From Nocardioides sp. (GTDB taxonomy: Bacteria > Actinomycetota > Actinomycetes > Propionibacteriales > Nocardioidaceae), in contig JAOPXM010000135.1 in assembly GCA_025965125.1 (NCBI GenBank), positions 1-46,327 of the forward strand: a DNA stretch of 46,327 bases, read 5' to 3'. The translations under genes were made by a program, and so were the position numbers. Positions 175 through 46,304 of the stretch are shown piece after piece; position 1 is the first letter of the stretch; the number at the start of each line of letters is the position of its first letter. The notes under the pieces are model-generated. The model was given only the letters and a program-made list of their open reading frames with translations, was not told the DNA's origin and did not search any database.

Positions 175-248
175 ATGTCCCCTGAGATTGCTCCCTCCTC
201 CCGCTTCGCTCCTTCCGTCCACAATCCCGAGGGGACCCCGAAACGCTG

Positions 249-1466
249 ATGATCAACCTCGACGATCCCAAGAAGTTCCGGCCGCTCACCGAGCAGGCCC
301 ACCAGGTCGCGATGAACATGCTCCGACCGATCTCGCGCAAGTACGACCTCGCCGAGCACGAGTACCCGAAGGAGCTCGACATGCTCGCGGCGATGATCGA
401 CGGGCTGTCGGAGTCCGGCGCATCCGAGGGTGCTGGTGCTGCCGGCGTCCGTCGCGAGGAGAAGGACGAGGACACCTCCGTCAAGAACGGCACCAACCTG
501 GCGTCGGTCATGTCCATCGCCGAGATGTGCTGGGGCGACGTCGGCCTGCTGCTGTCGATGCCCCGCCAGGGCCTTGGCAATTCCGCGATCGCCTCGGTGG
601 CCAACGATGAGCAGTCCAAGCGGTTCGAGGGCGTGTGGGCCGCCATGGCCATCACCGAGCCGAACACCGGCTCGGACTCCGCCAGCATCAGGACCACCGC
701 CACCCTGGACCCCGACACGGACTGCTACGTCCTGAACGGCGAAAAGATCTTCGTCACGTCCGGGGACCGGGCCGACGCGATCGTCGTCTGGGCCACGCTC
801 GACAGGGACCTCGGTCGCGCCGCCATCAAGTCGTTCGTCGTCCCCAAGGGCACCCCGGGCATGAAGGTCGAGCGGCTCGAGCACAAGCTTGGGATCCGGG
901 CCTCCGACACCGCGACGATCATCTTCGAGAACTGCCGGGTCCCCGCGGAGAACCTGATGGGCTCGCCGGAGGTCGACGTGAAGCAGGGCTTCGCCGGTGC
1001 GATGGCGACGTTCGACAACACCCGGCCGCTGGTCGCGGCGATGGCCGTCGGCTGCGCCAAGGCCGCTCTCGACCTGGTCCGTGACCTGCTCGAGCAGGCC
1101 GGTATCGAGATCGACTACGACCGCCCGGCGATCACCCAGTCGGCAGCCGCCGCCAAGTTCCTCCAGATGGAGGCCGACTGGGAGGCATCGCACCTGCTCA
1201 TGCTGCAGGCGGCCTGGATGGCAGACAACCGCGAGCCGAACTCCCTCGAGGCCTCGATGGCCAAGGCGAAGGCCGGCCGGGTCGGCTCGGACATCACGCT
1301 CAGCTGCGTTGAGCTGGCCGGCTCGATCGGCTACAGCGAGACCGAGCTGCTCGAGAAGTGGGCCCGCGACTCCAAGATCCTCGACATCTTCGAGGGCACC
1401 CAGCAGATCCAGCAGCTGATCGTCGCCCGCCGGATCCTGGGGCTGTCGAGCACCGAGCTCAAGTAG
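249..1466 (+). CDS. Acyl-CoA dehydrogenase family protein
   Basis: This 405-residue protein is full length for the acyl-CoA dehydrogenase family. The middle domain shows AMAITEPNTGSDSASIRT (about residues 130-147), the FAD/substrate-binding signature, then GEKIFVTSGDRAD. The C-terminal domain ends with KILDIFEGTQQIQQLIVARR, which carries the conserved EGT motif. It should perform FAD-dependent alpha,beta-dehydrogenation of an acyl-CoA, feeding electrons to ETF. The ATG at 249 is preceded by a GAGGGGA stretch. It lies 74 bp after another acyl-CoA dehydrogenase end, so the two are likely co-transcribed. The gene converges with the minus-strand kinase/LLM gene with only 4 bp between stops. The N-terminal region is somewhat unusual, with a Gly/Ala/Ser-rich stretch near residues 56-66. 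Substrate unknown. Confidence 0.88.
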   Translation: MINLDDPKKFRPLTEQAHQVAMNMLRPISRKYDLAEHEYPKELDMLAAMIDGLSESGASEGAGAAGVRREEKDEDTSVKNGTNLASVMSIAEMCWGDVGLLLSMPRQGLGNSAIASVANDEQSKRFEGVWAAMAITEPNTGSDSASIRTTATLDPDTDCYVLNGEKIFVTSGDRADAIVVWATLDRDLGRAAIKSFVVPKGTPGMKVERLEHKLGIRASDTATIIFENCRVPAENLMGSPEVDVKQGFAGAMATFDNTRPLVAAMAVGCAKAALDLVRDLLEQAGIEIDYDRPAITQSAAAAKFLQMEADWEASHLLMLQAAWMADNREPNSLEASMAKAKAGRVGSDITLSCVELAGSIGYSETELLEKWARDSKILDIFEGTQQIQQLIVARRILGLSSTELK

Positions 1467-41358: not shown

Positions 41359-42873
41359 ATGAGTGTGCGCCGGGTCATGGGGGTCGAGGTCGAGTACGGC
41401 ATCTCGGTCCAGGGCCAGCCGATGGCCAACCCAATGGTGGCGTCCTCACAGGTCGTCAACGCCTACGCTTCGGCCACCGTACGGGCGCGCCGCGCCCGCT
41501 GGGACTTCGAGGAGGAGTCTCCGCTGCGCGACGCCCGCGGCTTCGAGATGTCGCGCCAGGCCGCCGATCCGGCCCAGCTGACCGACGAGGACATGGGCCT
41601 TGCCAACGTCATCCTCACCAACGGCGCGCGGCTCTACGTCGACCACGCCCACCCGGAGTACTCCACGCCCGAGGTCACCTCGCCCCTGGACATCGTGAAG
41701 TGGGACAAGGCGGGAGAGCAGGTGATGCTCGACGCCCAGCGTCGGGCCAGCCAGCTGCCGGGTGGAGCCCCCATCGCCCTGTACAAGAACAACACCGACA
41801 ACAAGGGCGCGTCGTACGGCGCCCACGAGAACTACCTGATGCGGCGCTCGACACCGTTCGCCGACATCGTGCGCCACCTGACGCCGTTCTTCGTGAGCCG
41901 CCAGGTCATTGTCGGCTCTGGTCGGGTCGGCATCGGACAGGACGGGCGCGAGCACGGCTTCCAGGTCAGCCAGCGAGCGGACTACTTCGAGGTCGAGGTC
42001 GGGCTCGAGACCACACTCAAGCGCCCGATCATCAACACCCGCGACGAGCCCCACGCCGACCCGGAGAAGTACCGCCGCCTGCACGTGATCATCGGCGACG
42101 CGAACCTCTCCGAGGTGTCGACGTACCTCAAGGTCGGCACGACCGCGCTGGTGCTTGCGATGATCGAGGACCGCTTCATCACCCGTGACCTCAGCATCGA
42201 CGGTCCGGTCTCGGCCCTGCGTGCGGTGTCGCACGACCCGACTCTCCGCCAGCTCATCTCTCTCAGCGACGGGCGCAAGCTGACGGGCATCCAGCTCCAG
42301 CTCGAGTACCTAGACCTGGCCAAGAAGTACGTCGAGGACCGGTACGGCGACGCCGCGGACCCGCAGACCGTGGACATCCTGGCCCGTTGGGAGTCCGTGC
42401 TGGACCGACTGGAGCGGGACCCGATGCTCTGTGCGCGTGAGCTGGACTGGGTGGCCAAGCTGAAGCTGCTCGAGCAGTACCGCGACCGCGACGGGCTGGA
42501 GTGGAGCGACGCCAAGCTGCAGCTGATCGACTACCAGTACTCCGACATCCGCCCCGAGAAGGGGCTCTACCACCGGCTGGTGGGCATGGGCCGGATCGAG
42601 CGGCTGCTGGACGACGCGTCGATCACCGCGGCCATGCACGACCCGCCGGAGGACACTCGCGCCTACTTCCGCGGCCGGTGCCTGGAGAAGTACGCCGAGC
42701 ACGTCGCGGCGGCGTCGTGGGACTCGGTGATCTTCGACCTGCCCGGGCGCGAGTCGCTCCAGCGCGTCCCCACGATCGATCCGCTGCGCGGCAGCAAGGC
42801 GCATGTGGGCGAGCTGCTCGACCGCTCCGAGACCGCCGAGGCCCTGTTCACAGCTCTGACGCGGGGGCGCTGA
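41359..42873 (+). CDS. dop: Depupylase/Pup deamidase Dop
   Basis: The 504-residue protein has the glutamine-synthetase-like fold of the PafA/Dop family, starting [20 protein letters not shown]. After the first strand it has the extra loop typical of Dop (about residues 35-80, [20 protein letters not shown]), which PafA lacks. Shared signatures are [38 protein letters not shown] and [20 protein letters not shown]. It deamidates the C-terminal Gln of Pup to Glu and removes Pup from substrates. Pup, encoded 57 bp downstream, ends in Gln, so Dop is required here. Confidence 0.96.
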
Positions 42874-42918
42874 GGGTCCGCAGGGCCGCTAGGGCCCACG
42901 AATGTGGGTCGGACTGGA

Positions 42919-42924
42919 TAGGGT
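42919..42924 (+). promoter_or_regulatory. Leaderless -10 of pup
   Basis: TAGGGT lies 6 nt before the pup ATG at 42931. A small inverted repeat CCCAC-GAAT-GTGGG (42895-42908) precedes it. Confidence 0.5.
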
Positions 42925-42930
42925 CGGGAC

Positions 42931-43128
42931 ATGGCACAGGAGCAGAAGCAACCGCGCAAGTCGTCAGAGACCGAGGAGGCGACCGAGGTCGCCCCGGAGA
43001 CCGACGTCGCCGAGCGCAAGGAAGCCCTGGACGACGACATCGACGCGATCCTCGACGAGATCGACGAGGTGCTCGAGTCGAATGCCGAGGACTTCGTGAA
43101 GTCGTTCATCCAGAAGGGCGGACAGTGA
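42931..43128 (+). CDS. pup: Prokaryotic ubiquitin-like protein Pup
   Basis: The 65-residue acidic, mostly disordered protein ends [12 protein letters not shown]. The GGQ C-terminus is diagnostic of Pup that needs deamidation to GGE by Dop before PafA attaches it to substrate lysines. The helix-forming segment [20 protein letters not shown] is the part that docks on the ARC coiled coil. It has its own leaderless -10. Its TGA stop overlaps a GTG by 4 bp that could start a 19-codon mini-ORF leading to prcB. Confidence 0.98.
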
Positions 43129-43184
43129 TCAACGCCCCACGCGGATCCTCGCGTCGCTGCGGGTCACGACGGGGCCAAGCATGA
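43125..43184 (+). CDS. Candidate 19-codon relay mini-ORF between pup and prcB
   Basis: GTG at 43125 overlaps the pup stop (GTGA) and the frame ends at TGA 43182-43184, overlapping the prcB ATG (ATGA). The predicted peptide [19 protein letters not shown] is Arg-rich. prcB has no clear Shine-Dalgarno, so ribosomes ending this ORF could supply its initiation. It could also be chance. Confidence 0.35.
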
Positions 43185-44011
43185 CTGGTCCCCGTCTCCC
43201 GGCCGCGTTCCTGCAGCCGGGTGTCTCGTCGTTCAGTGAGTTCCTCGCCGAGCAGTCGCCGGACCTGCTGCCGGGGCGGCGTGCCATCCCCCAGGGCCAG
43301 GCCGGCGACCTCGCACCGCACGGCACCACCATCGTCGCCGCGACGTTCACGGGGGGTGTGGTCATGGCCGGCGACCGCCGCGCCACGATGGGCAACATCA
43401 TCGCCCAGCGCGACATCGAGAAGGTCTTCCCGGCCGACGAGTTCTCTGCGGTCGGCATCGCCGGCACGGCCGGGCTCGCGGTCGAGATGGTCCGTCTGTT
43501 CCAGACCGAGCTCGAGCACTACGAGAAGATCGAGGGCACCACGCTGTCGATGGACGGCAAGGCCAACCGGCTCGCAGCACTGATCCGGGCCAACCTCGGG
43601 ATGGCCATGCAGGGCCTCGCCGTGGTGCCGCTGTTCGCCGGCTACGACCTCCAGGCGGGGCAGGGCCGCATCTTCAGCTACGACGTAACGGGTGGGCGCT
43701 ACGAGGAGACCGCGTTCCACTCGGTCGGCTCGGGGTCGCTGTTCGCTCGCGGCTCGCTGAAGAAGCTCTACCGCGACGACCTCGACGAGACCGGTTGCGT
43801 GACCGCGACCATCCAGGCGCTCTACGACGCCGCCGACGACGACTCCGCCACGGGTGGGCCCGACCTGACCCGGCGGATCTTCCCCGTCGTCCAGGTGATC
43901 ACCGCCGAGGGTGCCCACCGGCTGCCCGACTCCGACGTCGCCGACATCGCCGACCGGGTGATAGCCGGCCGAATGACTCGTCCCGACGGCCCGGCCGCGT
44001 CCCTGACGTGA
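43181..44011 (+). CDS. prcB: 20S proteasome beta subunit PrcB
   Basis: The 276-residue protein is the catalytic subunit. An N-terminal propeptide (1-48) ends LAPHG and is cleaved before Thr49, giving a mature [16 protein letters not shown] start. Counting mature Thr as 1, Asp17 (in AGDRRA) and Lys33 (in DIEKVF) complete the Ntn-hydrolase site. A later [15 protein letters not shown] segment is also typical. It forms the inner rings of the 20S core and degrades unfolded substrates. Only a weak GGGGCC lies before the ATG. Its stop overlaps a GTG for a second mini-ORF. Confidence 0.97.
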
Positions 44012-44052
44012 ACCTTCTCGACAGGCTCGATCACCAGGAGCTACCCGCATGA
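44008..44052 (+). CDS. Candidate 14-codon relay mini-ORF between prcB and prcA
   Basis: GTG at 44008 overlaps the prcB stop (GTGA), and the frame ends at TGA 44050-44052 overlapping the prcA ATG (ATGA). The predicted peptide is [14 protein letters not shown]. It repeats the arrangement at the pup-prcB junction, but here prcA also has a good Shine-Dalgarno (AGGAG, 8 nt) inside it. Confidence 0.35.
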
Positions 44053-44933
44053 GCATGCCTTTCTACGTCTCGCCCGAGCAGTTGATGAAGGACCGGGCCG
44101 ACTTCGCGCGCAAGGGGATCGCCCGAGGCCGCTCGGTCGTGACCGTGCAGTACGCCGGTGGCATCCTCTTCGTGTCCGAGAACCCCTCGCAGGCGTTGCA
44201 CAAGGTCTCGGAGATCTACGACCGGATCGCGTTCGCCGCGGTCGGCCGCTACAACGAGTTCGAGAACCTTCGGATCGCCGGAGTCCGGCTCGCCGACATG
44301 CGCGGCTACGCCTACGACCGGCGCGACGTGACCGGTCGCGGGCTCGCCAACGCCTACGCCCAGACGCTCGGCACGATCTTCTCCAGCGGGGGTGAGAAGC
44401 CCTACGAGGTCGAGCTCTTCGTGGCGGAGATCGGTGACGAGGCCGCCGCCGACCAGATCTACCGCCTGACCTACGACGGCCAGGTCGCCGACGAGCACGG
44501 GTACGCCGTGATGGGTGGCGCGGCCGACGTGGTCGCCAGCTACCTGACGGAGCACTACACCGACGGCACCTCGCTCCAGGAGGCCGTCCGGATGGCCGTG
44601 GCGGCGCTGGGGCACTCGACGGACGACAAGGGGGCCACCACGGACCGGGTGATCCCGCTCAAGGATCTCGAGGTCGCAATTCTTGACCGCACCCGCACAC
44701 AGCCTCGCAAGTTCAGCCGGCTGAGCCCGGCCCGGCTCGAGACCCTGTTGGGGCACCGGGGTCCGGCCGTGGCGGCCCCGACCCAGCCCGGTGACTCGGC
44801 TCCGGGCACGGCGCCGTCGGACACCACTCCCGACGACCCCGCGGACCCGACGGACCAGGAGAGCGGCAACGTCTCCCCGCTCGAGGACCCCGGGACGGGC
44901 GAGCCGCCCACGGCACCGCCGGTGGCCCCGTAG
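44049..44933 (+). CDS. prcA: 20S proteasome alpha subunit PrcA
   Basis: The 294-residue protein starts [20 protein letters not shown], aligned with the Mtb PrcA start (MSFPYFISPEQ, from memory), and has the gate-forming N-terminal tail. The core includes [20 protein letters not shown] and [20 protein letters not shown]. It forms the outer rings and docks ARC. After about residue 235 comes a long Pro/Thr/Asp-rich, probably disordered tail (from [20 protein letters not shown]), longer than in Mtb. The pafA -10 starts in its stop codon. Confidence 0.97.
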
Positions 44934-44936
44934 GGT
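44931..44936 (+). promoter_or_regulatory. Leaderless -10 of pafA, embedded in the prcA stop codon
   Basis: TAGGGT, whose TAG is the prcA stop codon (44931-44933), lies 6 nt before the pafA ATG at 44943. Confidence 0.5.
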
Positions 44937-44942
44937 TGGGTC

Positions 44943-46304
44943 ATGGACCGGCGCATCTTCGGCATCGAGAACGAGTACGGCGTCACGTGCACGTTCAAGG
45001 GCCAGCGCCGTCTCAGCCCCGACGAGGTCGCCCGCTACCTGTTCCGCAAGGTTGTCAGCTGGGGTCGCAGCAGCAACGTGTTCCTCCGCAACGGTGCCCG
45101 CCTCTACCTCGACGTGGGCAGCCACCCCGAGTACGCCACCCCGGAGTGCGACGACATCAGCGAGCTCGTCACCCATGACAAGGCGGGGGAGCGGGTCCTC
45201 GAGGGACTGCTCCTCGACGCCGAGCAGCGCCTGCACGACGAGGGCATCCAGGGCGAGATCTACCTCTTCAAGAACAACACCGACTCCGCTGGCAACTCCT
45301 ACGGCTGCCACGAGAACTATCTCGTCGGACGGGCCGGCGAGTTCTCCCGGCTGGCCGACGTGCTCATCCCGTTCCTGGTGACCCGCCAGATCATCGTCGG
45401 TGCCGGCAAGATCACCCAGACCCCGCGCGGTGCCAGCTATTCGGTCTCGCAGCGCGCCGAGCACATCTGGGAGGGCGTCTCCAGCGCGACCACCCGGAGC
45501 CGCCCGATCATCAACACCCGCGATGAGCCCCACGCGGACGCGGAGAAGTATCGCCGGCTCCACGTGATCGTCGGTGACTCCAACATGAGCGAGACGACGA
45601 CAATGCTGAAGGTCGCCAGCTGCGACCTGGTGCTGCGGATGATCGAGGAGGGCGTGATCATGCGCGACCTCACGATGGAGAACCCGATCCGGGCGATCCG
45701 GGAGATCTCGCACGACGTCACCGGTCGCCGCAAGGTCCGCCTCGCCAACGGCCGCGAGGCCAGCGCCCTCGAGATCCAGGGCGAGTACCTCTCCAAGGCC
45801 CGCGACTTCGTCGACCGGCGGCAGATCAGCACACCGGTGATCGAGCAGTGCCTCGACCTGTGGGAGCGCGGGCTCAAGGCCATCGAGTCCGATGACCTGG
45901 GCCTGGTCGACCGCGAGATCGACTGGGTGATCAAGTGGAAGCTGATCGACCGCTACCGCGCGAAGCACGGGTTGCCGCTCGGGCACCCGCGGATCGCCCA
46001 GCTCGACCTCGCCTACCACGACATCCACCGCGACCGCGGGCTGTACTACCTGCTGGAGAAGCGTGGGGCAGTCAAGCGGGTAACCAACGACCTGGCCATC
46101 TTCCGCGCCAAGTCGGTGCCGCCCCAGACGACGCGGGCGCGGCTGCGCGGCAGCTTCATCAAGCGTGCGCAGGAGCGCCGTCGTGACTTCACCGTCGACT
46201 GGGTGCACCTGAAGCTCAACGACCAGGCCCAGCGCACGGTCCTGTGCAAGGACCCGTTCCGGGCCCACGACGACCGCGTGGACCGCCTGATCGCCTCGAT
46301 GTGA
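44943..46304 (+). CDS. pafA: Pup-protein ligase PafA
   Basis: The 453-residue protein starts [20 protein letters not shown], with the glutamate-containing metal/ATP site ENEYG. It has [39 protein letters not shown] and [20 protein letters not shown], as in Dop, but lacks the Dop loop. It phosphorylates the Pup C-terminal Glu with ATP and attaches it to substrate lysines. It has its own leaderless -10, and in Mtb pafA lies apart from prcA, so it may be expressed separately. Only 23 bp follow in the window; nothing is seen there. Confidence 0.97.

Follow-up and report, generated by a model that had tools for sequence, protein, structure and literature searches.

A probable MIRU-like dispersed element with a candidate pass-through mini-frame at the pup-prcB junction of Nocardioides sp.

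Introduction

The closest described systems to the locus considered here are the MIRUs of mycobacteria. In the excerpts of the literature cited here, MIRUs are repeats of 40-100 bp (PMC2734929), with units of 77 and 53 bp (PMC4213456), which appear to be mobile and to insert at start codons (PMC12548453, a 2025 review citing Supply 1997). An ORF within a MIRU is described as coupled to a gene with a spacing of -4 nt (PMC12548453). As for their distribution, one excerpt confines them to M. leprae and the M. tuberculosis complex (PMC4213456), whereas another places them in many mycobacteria (PMC12548453). Two further mechanisms of ribosome delivery are mentioned in excerpts of the same kind, namely, translational coupling by termination-reinitiation at ATGA overlaps (PMC6728339) and translated uORFs, which deliver ribosomes to the next gene (PMC12548453).

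The present analysis concerns a stretch of 46,327 nt of Nocardioides sp. DNA (contig JAOPXM010000135.1, hereafter the window), which carries the proteasome operon pup-prcB-prcA. The element found at its pup-prcB junction is, like the MIRUs, short and dispersed at many genomic places. It sits at start codons or stop/start overlaps with its ORF joined to the downstream gene, and it is mostly 53-71 nt long, with tandem copies of 53-nt period, as in MIRU-VNTR loci. It differs from them in its hosts, which are Nocardioides, Marmoricola, Frankiales, and a Micromonosporaceae MAG. The element family thus would appear to work like MIRUs but is not filed here as MIRU, as the two are likened by description and not by sequence. 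With coupling at ATGA overlaps the locus shares NTGA overlaps, as they are seen at both junctions of its sister group, but here an element with its own mini-frame stands between two overlaps. As with uORFs, the short ORF would serve to deliver a ribosome; unlike them, it lies between two genes and is part of a dispersed repeat.

REP elements are short palindromic dispersed repeats mobilised by Y1 (RAYT) transposases. The element described here is also palindromic and dispersed, with a hairpin that pairs better on one strand, but no Y1 transposase was found in the 20 genomes searched, and its copies are located at coding overlaps.

Literature searches returned no open-access account of the element in Nocardioides and none of such a coupling in prcBA, which is no proof of absence. 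An initial sequence-only reading of the locus had stated that it knew of no relay described for the operon; this agrees with the searches as far as prcBA is concerned, but a relay of the same kind is described for mycobacterial MIRUs in the excerpt of PMC12548453. The locus most likely contains a MIRU-like pass-through element, which as far as the searches show is new for this bacterial group.

The proteasome operon and its two mini-frames

The genes pup, prcB, and prcA form one run, flanked by two genes of the Pup-ligase family. The features of the run, all on the + strand, are as follows:

42931..43128, +, pup (Pfam Pup, E=5.7e-26); its stop TGA 43126-43128 lies within GTGA 43125-43128
43125..43184, +, mini-frame 1, GTG 43125, TGA 43182-43184, 19 codons; bridges the pup stop and the prcB start
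43181..44011, +, prcB, proteasome beta subunit (Pfam Proteasome); recovered by a purpose-written gene finder
44008..44052, +, mini-frame 2, GTG 44008, TGA 44050-44052, 14 codons; bridges the prcB stop and the prcA start
44036..44040, +, AGGAG, Shine-Dalgarno-like site for prcA, read from the sequence
44049..44933, +, prcA, proteasome alpha subunit (Pfam Proteasome)

The gaps between the genes amount to 52 nt (pup-prcB) and 37 nt (prcB-prcA), and in neither case does the downstream start overlap the upstream stop. The architecture claimed by the sequence-only reading is borne out to the letter: a GTG lies within the upstream stop (GTGA) at both junctions, and the frames of 19 and 14 codons each end in a TGA that overlaps the next ATG (ATGA), which for mini-frame 1 is the prcB ATGA 43181-43184. 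The absence of a strong Shine-Dalgarno sequence before prcB was likewise confirmed, as inspection by eye revealed no AGGAG-type site upstream of it. The further claim that both junctions have the same design holds for the GTGA/ATGA overlaps but not for the ribosome-binding signals, since only prcA has an AGGAG, 8 nt 5′ of its ATG. Rfam 15 gave no matches up to E=1 within positions 42800-45000 of the window.

The junctions among relatives

PrcB was found in 289 of the 294 genomes of the family sample, and 226 unique loci were gathered, from which 225 pup-prcB and 223 prcB-prcA junctions were scored. Fifteen duplicates, L121-L126, and L060 (prcB interrupted) were left out of the junction counts, and the prcB-prcA count also leaves out L213 (no prcB stop) and L231 (no prcA match). 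In L060 (G001:C23:104470-105280), which comes from a draft genome, prcB is seemingly broken by a frame change or a stop.

The commonest single state of the scored junctions is a possible direct overlap, that is, an NTGA whose start is in frame with the downstream gene (111/225 pup-prcB and 83/223 prcB-prcA junctions). It occurs at one junction at least in 152 of 225 loci and at both in 42; at 40 of the 111 direct-overlap pup-prcB junctions, another in-frame start follows at least 10 nt further on. In a tree built from the two genes prcB and prcA, the clade of the window (support 0.93) also includes L022, L011, L017, and L004; the nodes deeper than this clade are weaker (0.83, 0.59). The members of this sister group have direct NTGA overlaps at both junctions. 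The nearest loci by branch length are L171 and L002, where pup ends in TAG and the prcB-prcA overlap is direct. Given the direct overlaps at both junctions in the sister group, the pair of mini-frames is not conserved in the operon. The idea of a conserved relay specific to this operon was dropped, as direct overlaps at one or both junctions are frequent in relatives; the check on retained overlaps that had been proposed with it argues, when run, against a conserved relay here.

Different considerations apply to the phase of those relays that do exist. Among out-of-frame NTGA junctions, 29 of 41 at pup-prcB and 18 of 19 at prcB-prcA have a mini-frame whose end coincides exactly with an in-frame start of the downstream gene. 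Eleven of the twelve pup-prcB exceptions have a prcB start only 3 to 9 nt past the first base of the stop; in the twelfth, L240, the prcB start directly follows the stop, judging from match length and letters, though it was scored as phase 2. Where the first in-frame start lies at least 10 nt from the stop, the mini-frame of out-of-frame NTGA junctions ends on it in 14/14 pup-prcB and 15/16 prcB-prcA cases, as against 19/51 for prcB-prcA junctions with CTGA, which have no overlapping start, at the same distance; all three counts ignore shared ancestry. Over all out-of-frame prcB-prcA junctions, the comparison is 18/19 for NTGA versus 35/70 for CTGA (Fisher p=0.0004, kinship ignored). When pup ends in TAG or TAA, all three phases are seen (15, 46, and 12 of 73).

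As a control, the purpose-written gene finder was applied to 800 kb of the ~4.2 Mb of one related genome. At gaps of 10-150 nt, 7 of 29 out-of-frame NTGA and 25 of 81 CTGA junctions end on a start. A single arbitrary out-of-frame junction is therefore unremarkable, and a general rule by which NTGA junctions carry relays is ruled out. The recurrence of relays across relatives of this operon, on the other hand, does appear from these comparisons to exceed chance.

A dispersed element as the probable source of the pup-prcB spacer

An alignment of eleven pup-prcB inserts (53-62 nt) with one prcB-prcA insert shows them to be mostly related in sequence. The pup-prcB inserts are scattered among direct-overlap loci, and among the 14 leaves with relays of at least 4 codons no two form a clade in the two-gene tree. 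In the comparison of an empty site with a filled one (L079 versus L090), about 53 nt are set into ATGA, which is now present at both ends.

A sequence model (R1) of the 12 inserts, with the window copy included in its training, gave at E<=1 between 8 and 49 matches in each of 20/20 chosen genomes of the genus, with 45 in the window's own genome. In a stricter scan (E<=0.001), 37 of 246 genomes of the class matched, and the own genome had 18 matches. Among the class matches, L367, L368, L369, and L370 look by eye like coding sequence, and L367, L368, and L370, from genomes of genus g64, match model positions 3-41 only. An exact pattern of the element was found in 17 stretches from Nocardioides, Marmoricola, Frankiales/Frankiaceae, one Micromonosporaceae MAG, and one Actinomycetota MAG, and had no match in viral contigs. 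Rigid patterns gave almost no further copies in the own genome and, in 14 genomes, 6 places of which 5 were the pup-prcB site; the single-locus insert that they suggested was overturned by the matches of the sequence model across genomes.

The consensus of the element, read by eye, is approximately ATGAnCACCCCACGAAnnnGCTCGCTgCGCTCnnnnnTCCGCGGGGnCCCCGcATGA. Its body measures ~53 nt, and other size classes are 65, 68, and 71. Matches of 69 and 75 nt, with multiples of 3 added, are frequent in some genomes (e.g., G262, G178, G141, and G221). Tandem copies with a 53-nt period occur, as at G218:C1:516135/516188/516241 and in L379. Such tandems were noted at G218:C1:516135-516292, at L379 691-775, and in L351, L346, and L311; the period is mostly 53 nt, and 71 in L311. 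In L350 and L354, element copies stand directly before a gene starting MIQQESRLRVADNTGAKELL (by eye), which we take to be that of ribosomal protein L14; if this identity holds, a ribosomal protein operon has been entered too.

Element copies in the window and a second repeat

The window contains three stretches of dispersed sequence:

43129..43184, +, divergent 56-nt variant of the ~53-nt dispersed element; R1 E=2.6e-9, this copy being in the training set
175..249, +, second element copy; the independent model matches 185-242 in nhmmer (E=0.0031)
44016..44035, +, TCTCGACAGGCTCGATCACC, core of another dispersed repeat, not related to the element, in the prcB-prcA spacer; pattern matches across genomes

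The independent model was built from 22 copies, with all pup-prcB inserts excluded. It recovers the pup-prcB copy of the window at 13.0 bits (E=0.0034 in the window, E=0.58 for 8 Mb). At the 8-Mb size, eight other pup-prcB inserts are matched with E from 1.9e-6 down to 6.6e-14, and the prcB-prcA insert L115 with E=0.0014. The model gave no match in 5 of 14 long pup-prcB inserts (L117, L163, L215, L216, and L225) and none in 14 of 15 long prcB-prcA inserts.

At the second copy, a mini-frame of 24 codons (MSPEIAPSSRFAPSVHNPEGTPKR, 175-249) begins directly after the stop (TGA 172-174) of a gene of acyl-CoA dehydrogenase type, and its TGA 247-249 overlaps the next ATG (249) by 1 nt, i.e., as TGATG. 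This mini-frame bridges two acyl-CoA dehydrogenase-type genes.

The prcB-prcA spacer is unrelated to the pup-prcB spacer, and each of them holds a dispersed repeat. With up to 2 mismatches, TCTCGACAGGCTCGATCACC is found in 15 of 26 genomes, with 145 matches in one (G114), 107 in another, and 3 in the own genome, whereas a reversed-pattern control gave 0 in 26/26. The sequence TCTCGACAGGCTCGAYCACC is an abundant dispersed repeat in G114, G264, and G256 (145, 107, and 59 matches) and is absent in 11 of the 26 genomes searched. Still other types of insert are present at the prcB-prcA junction of other relatives. Those of L178, L206, L112, L075, and L174 carry GAGCGAAGCGAG-like motifs or end in GGCCGGAGGC(A/G)TCGC before the ATG; the mini-frame still closes at the start of prcA in all of them except L075, which has a CTGA stop and another phase.

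Site and phase of the element copies

The position of the element relative to genes was examined in 79 rows, 21 of them from the own genome. At the 5′ end of the element, a long open frame from upstream terminates in 14/21 own and 52/58 other rows, with a positive coding score of the upstream frame in 12 and 43, respectively, and a start lies at the 3′ end in 19/21 own and 49/58 other rows. Most copies bridge two genes. Seven of the 21 own copies are without an overlapping upstream stop, some of them behind a gene on the opposite strand. L323, L326, L340, L341, and L336 of the own genome are such cases; they lie at a start codon and either lack an upstream stop that overlaps it or follow an opposite-strand gene. 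The mini-frame of copies that sit at a start codon only would act as an upstream ORF and not as a bridge.

Phase was taken as the distance from the first NTG of the element to the downstream start, the starts being chosen by our own scripts. Fourteen of the 79 rows, among them the first copies of tandem pairs, were dropped for want of a usable end or start. The 65 analysable rows show phase 2 in 61 cases, phase 0 in 3, and phase 1 in 1; exactly 53 nt separate the two points in 36 of them. As a length of 53 nt equals 2 mod 3, the element in part brings phase 2 with it, and selection is tested only by the length variants. The 29 rows that are not 53 nt have phases 2, 0, and 1 in 25, 3, and 1 cases (25 versus 1, binomial p=8e-7 if independent, which is not assured, as ancestry may be shared). 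Ten of the 65 rows are pup-prcB inserts that were also used to build the model; without them the counts become 51, 3, and 1 of 55, and those of the subset other than 53 nt become 21, 3, and 1 of 25. Lengths of 56, 59, 62, 65, 68, and 71 are all of phase 2, and four rows have lengths of 51 or 57 (phase 0) or 52 (phase 1). In L387, a loss plus a later gain, seen by eye, leaves the length at 53.

Of the 61 phase-2 mini-frames, 57 were scored as open exactly to the downstream start; four were scored as not open, and in two of these, L296 and L297, the sequence stretch was too short. In the pattern-found set, for which the last 25 nt were left free, the mini-frame closes on the downstream start in 17 of 18 cases and on the following tandem copy in the remaining one. 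Four of the 18, the tandem one included, were already among the earlier loci, and the new ones agree in 14 of 14 cases. The upstream coding score is supportive in 16 of 18, the exceptions being L375 and the second copy of a tandem pair.

Arm pairing and a possible mobiliser

The pairing of the two arms was measured in 25 hand-picked full-length copies of 57 nt (A2), with the pairing derived from a single one of these sequences. On the coding strand 71% of cells are standard pairs, and on its complement 84%; sliding the partners gives 32-52%, and shuffling gives 58% and 70%. Changes on both sides of a pair affect 53 and 54 cells versus 21 and 23 when shuffled, and none of 500 shuffles is as high. 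The arms of the element covary, more strongly on the non-coding strand. By two of the five pairing measures the shuffles do as well: at least as many pairs with a both-side change (8/13) arise in 187 and 250 of 500 shuffles, and at least as many further pair types in 268 and 402 of 500. RNAalifold applied to the alignment gave 5 pairs only, with no covariation, and on neither strand does the folding of the window copy surpass that of shuffled sequences (z 0.73, -0.59).

A near-fixed A-C on the coding strand corresponds to a G-U on the other strand, so that the hairpin is better on the non-coding strand, as would be expected if that strand is the one recognised. A Y1 transposase (PF01797) was found in none of 20 genomes, ten with and ten without element matches, with a control search positive in 5 of 14 known genomes. 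Given this absence in the 20 genomes searched, a Y1 transposase was set aside as the mobiliser.

Origin and possible function of the mini-frames

We consider, with a probability of roughly three in four, that a short dispersed element with a pass-through mini-frame, similar in its habits to MIRUs, gave rise to the pup-prcB spacer, which would be an old and divergent copy of it. The element sits at an NTGA stop/start overlap, or at a start codon alone, and NTGA is then present at each end, which would correspond to a target duplication, as the empty and filled sites suggest. Before the insertion, ribosomes finishing pup could have started prcB on the GTG within the stop. The insertion would have shifted prcB by 2 mod 3, and the old start would now open a mini-frame that closes on the new one. 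A ribosome would end pup, re-initiate at GTG 43125, and read 19 codons up to ATGA, where it would stop and begin again on prcB. With an insert of 1 mod 3, ribosomes would enter prcB in the wrong frame, and one of 0 mod 3 would only lengthen the protein, consequences which fit the low frequency of phase 1. About 7 nt ahead of the start, close to the 3′ end of the element, stands a GGGG that can pair with the CCCC close to its 5′ end, and the passage of ribosomes through the mini-frame might also make the start region accessible. The prcB-prcA spacer may have a similar origin from a different dispersed repeat, with prcA also having its own Shine-Dalgarno-like site.

The sequence-only reading had proposed that ribosomes pass from Pup through PrcB to PrcA by successive re-initiation, which would fix the protein ratios. 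The passage itself fits the comparative data: phase is kept while lengths and sequences vary, and ribosomes crossing the mini-frames are thereby supported at the level of sequence comparison. The ratio-fixing design found no support. A purpose-built, conserved relay of the proteasome operon that sets Pup:PrcB:PrcA ratios could appeal to the fact that both mini-frames are real and that relays recur at both junctions among relatives, but we regard it as very improbable in view of the direct overlaps at both junctions of the sister group, of the unrelatedness of the two spacers, and of the many other genes at which the pup-prcB element occurs. Improbable, too, in our judgement is an origin by chance, in which frames are open in high-GC DNA, GTGA and ATGA are common, and the mini-frames are untranslated. 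The 800-kb control, where 7/29 NTGA and 25/81 CTGA out-of-frame junctions end on a start, is in line with such an origin for a single junction, but the proteasome junctions with a start at least 10 nt away (14/14 and 15/16 versus 19/51 for CTGA) and the length variants outside pup-prcB (21 of phase 2 versus 1 of phase 1) depart from it.

The dispersed repeats might also keep their phase only through the fixed length of the element, with coupling being irrelevant. The 36 of 65 analysable copies that are exactly 53 nt apart and the lack of an overlapping upstream stop in 7 of 21 own copies are in line with this explanation, but the variants of 56, 59, 62, 65, 68, and 71 nt all keep phase 2, with 4 rows of other lengths differing, and the loss and gain in L387 leave the length at 53; we find it unlikely. 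On our preferred reading, that of an inserted element with a pass-through mini-frame, the rarity of phase-breaking copies and variants may be read as purifying selection for the hand-over of ribosomes.

A wider proposal, to which we give somewhat less than even odds, is that translation-transparent mobile elements are widespread in Actinomycetia beyond mycobacteria. They would be recognised as a hairpin on the non-coding strand, moved by a mobiliser other than Y1, directed to NTGA coupling sites, and harmless because of a length of 2 mod 3 and an open frame. If this is true, operons, ribosomal protein and proteasome ones included, can be invaded without losing the hand-over of ribosomes.

Significance

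A single element that occurs in many copies at stop/start overlaps and start codons of many genes, and whose length variants preserve the phase, amounts to a natural experiment, which would give comparative evidence for the travel of ribosomes through mini-frames. The MIRU-like way of life would be extended past mycobacteria. Translated relays may be overlooked when the short intergenic gaps of actinobacterial operons are annotated.
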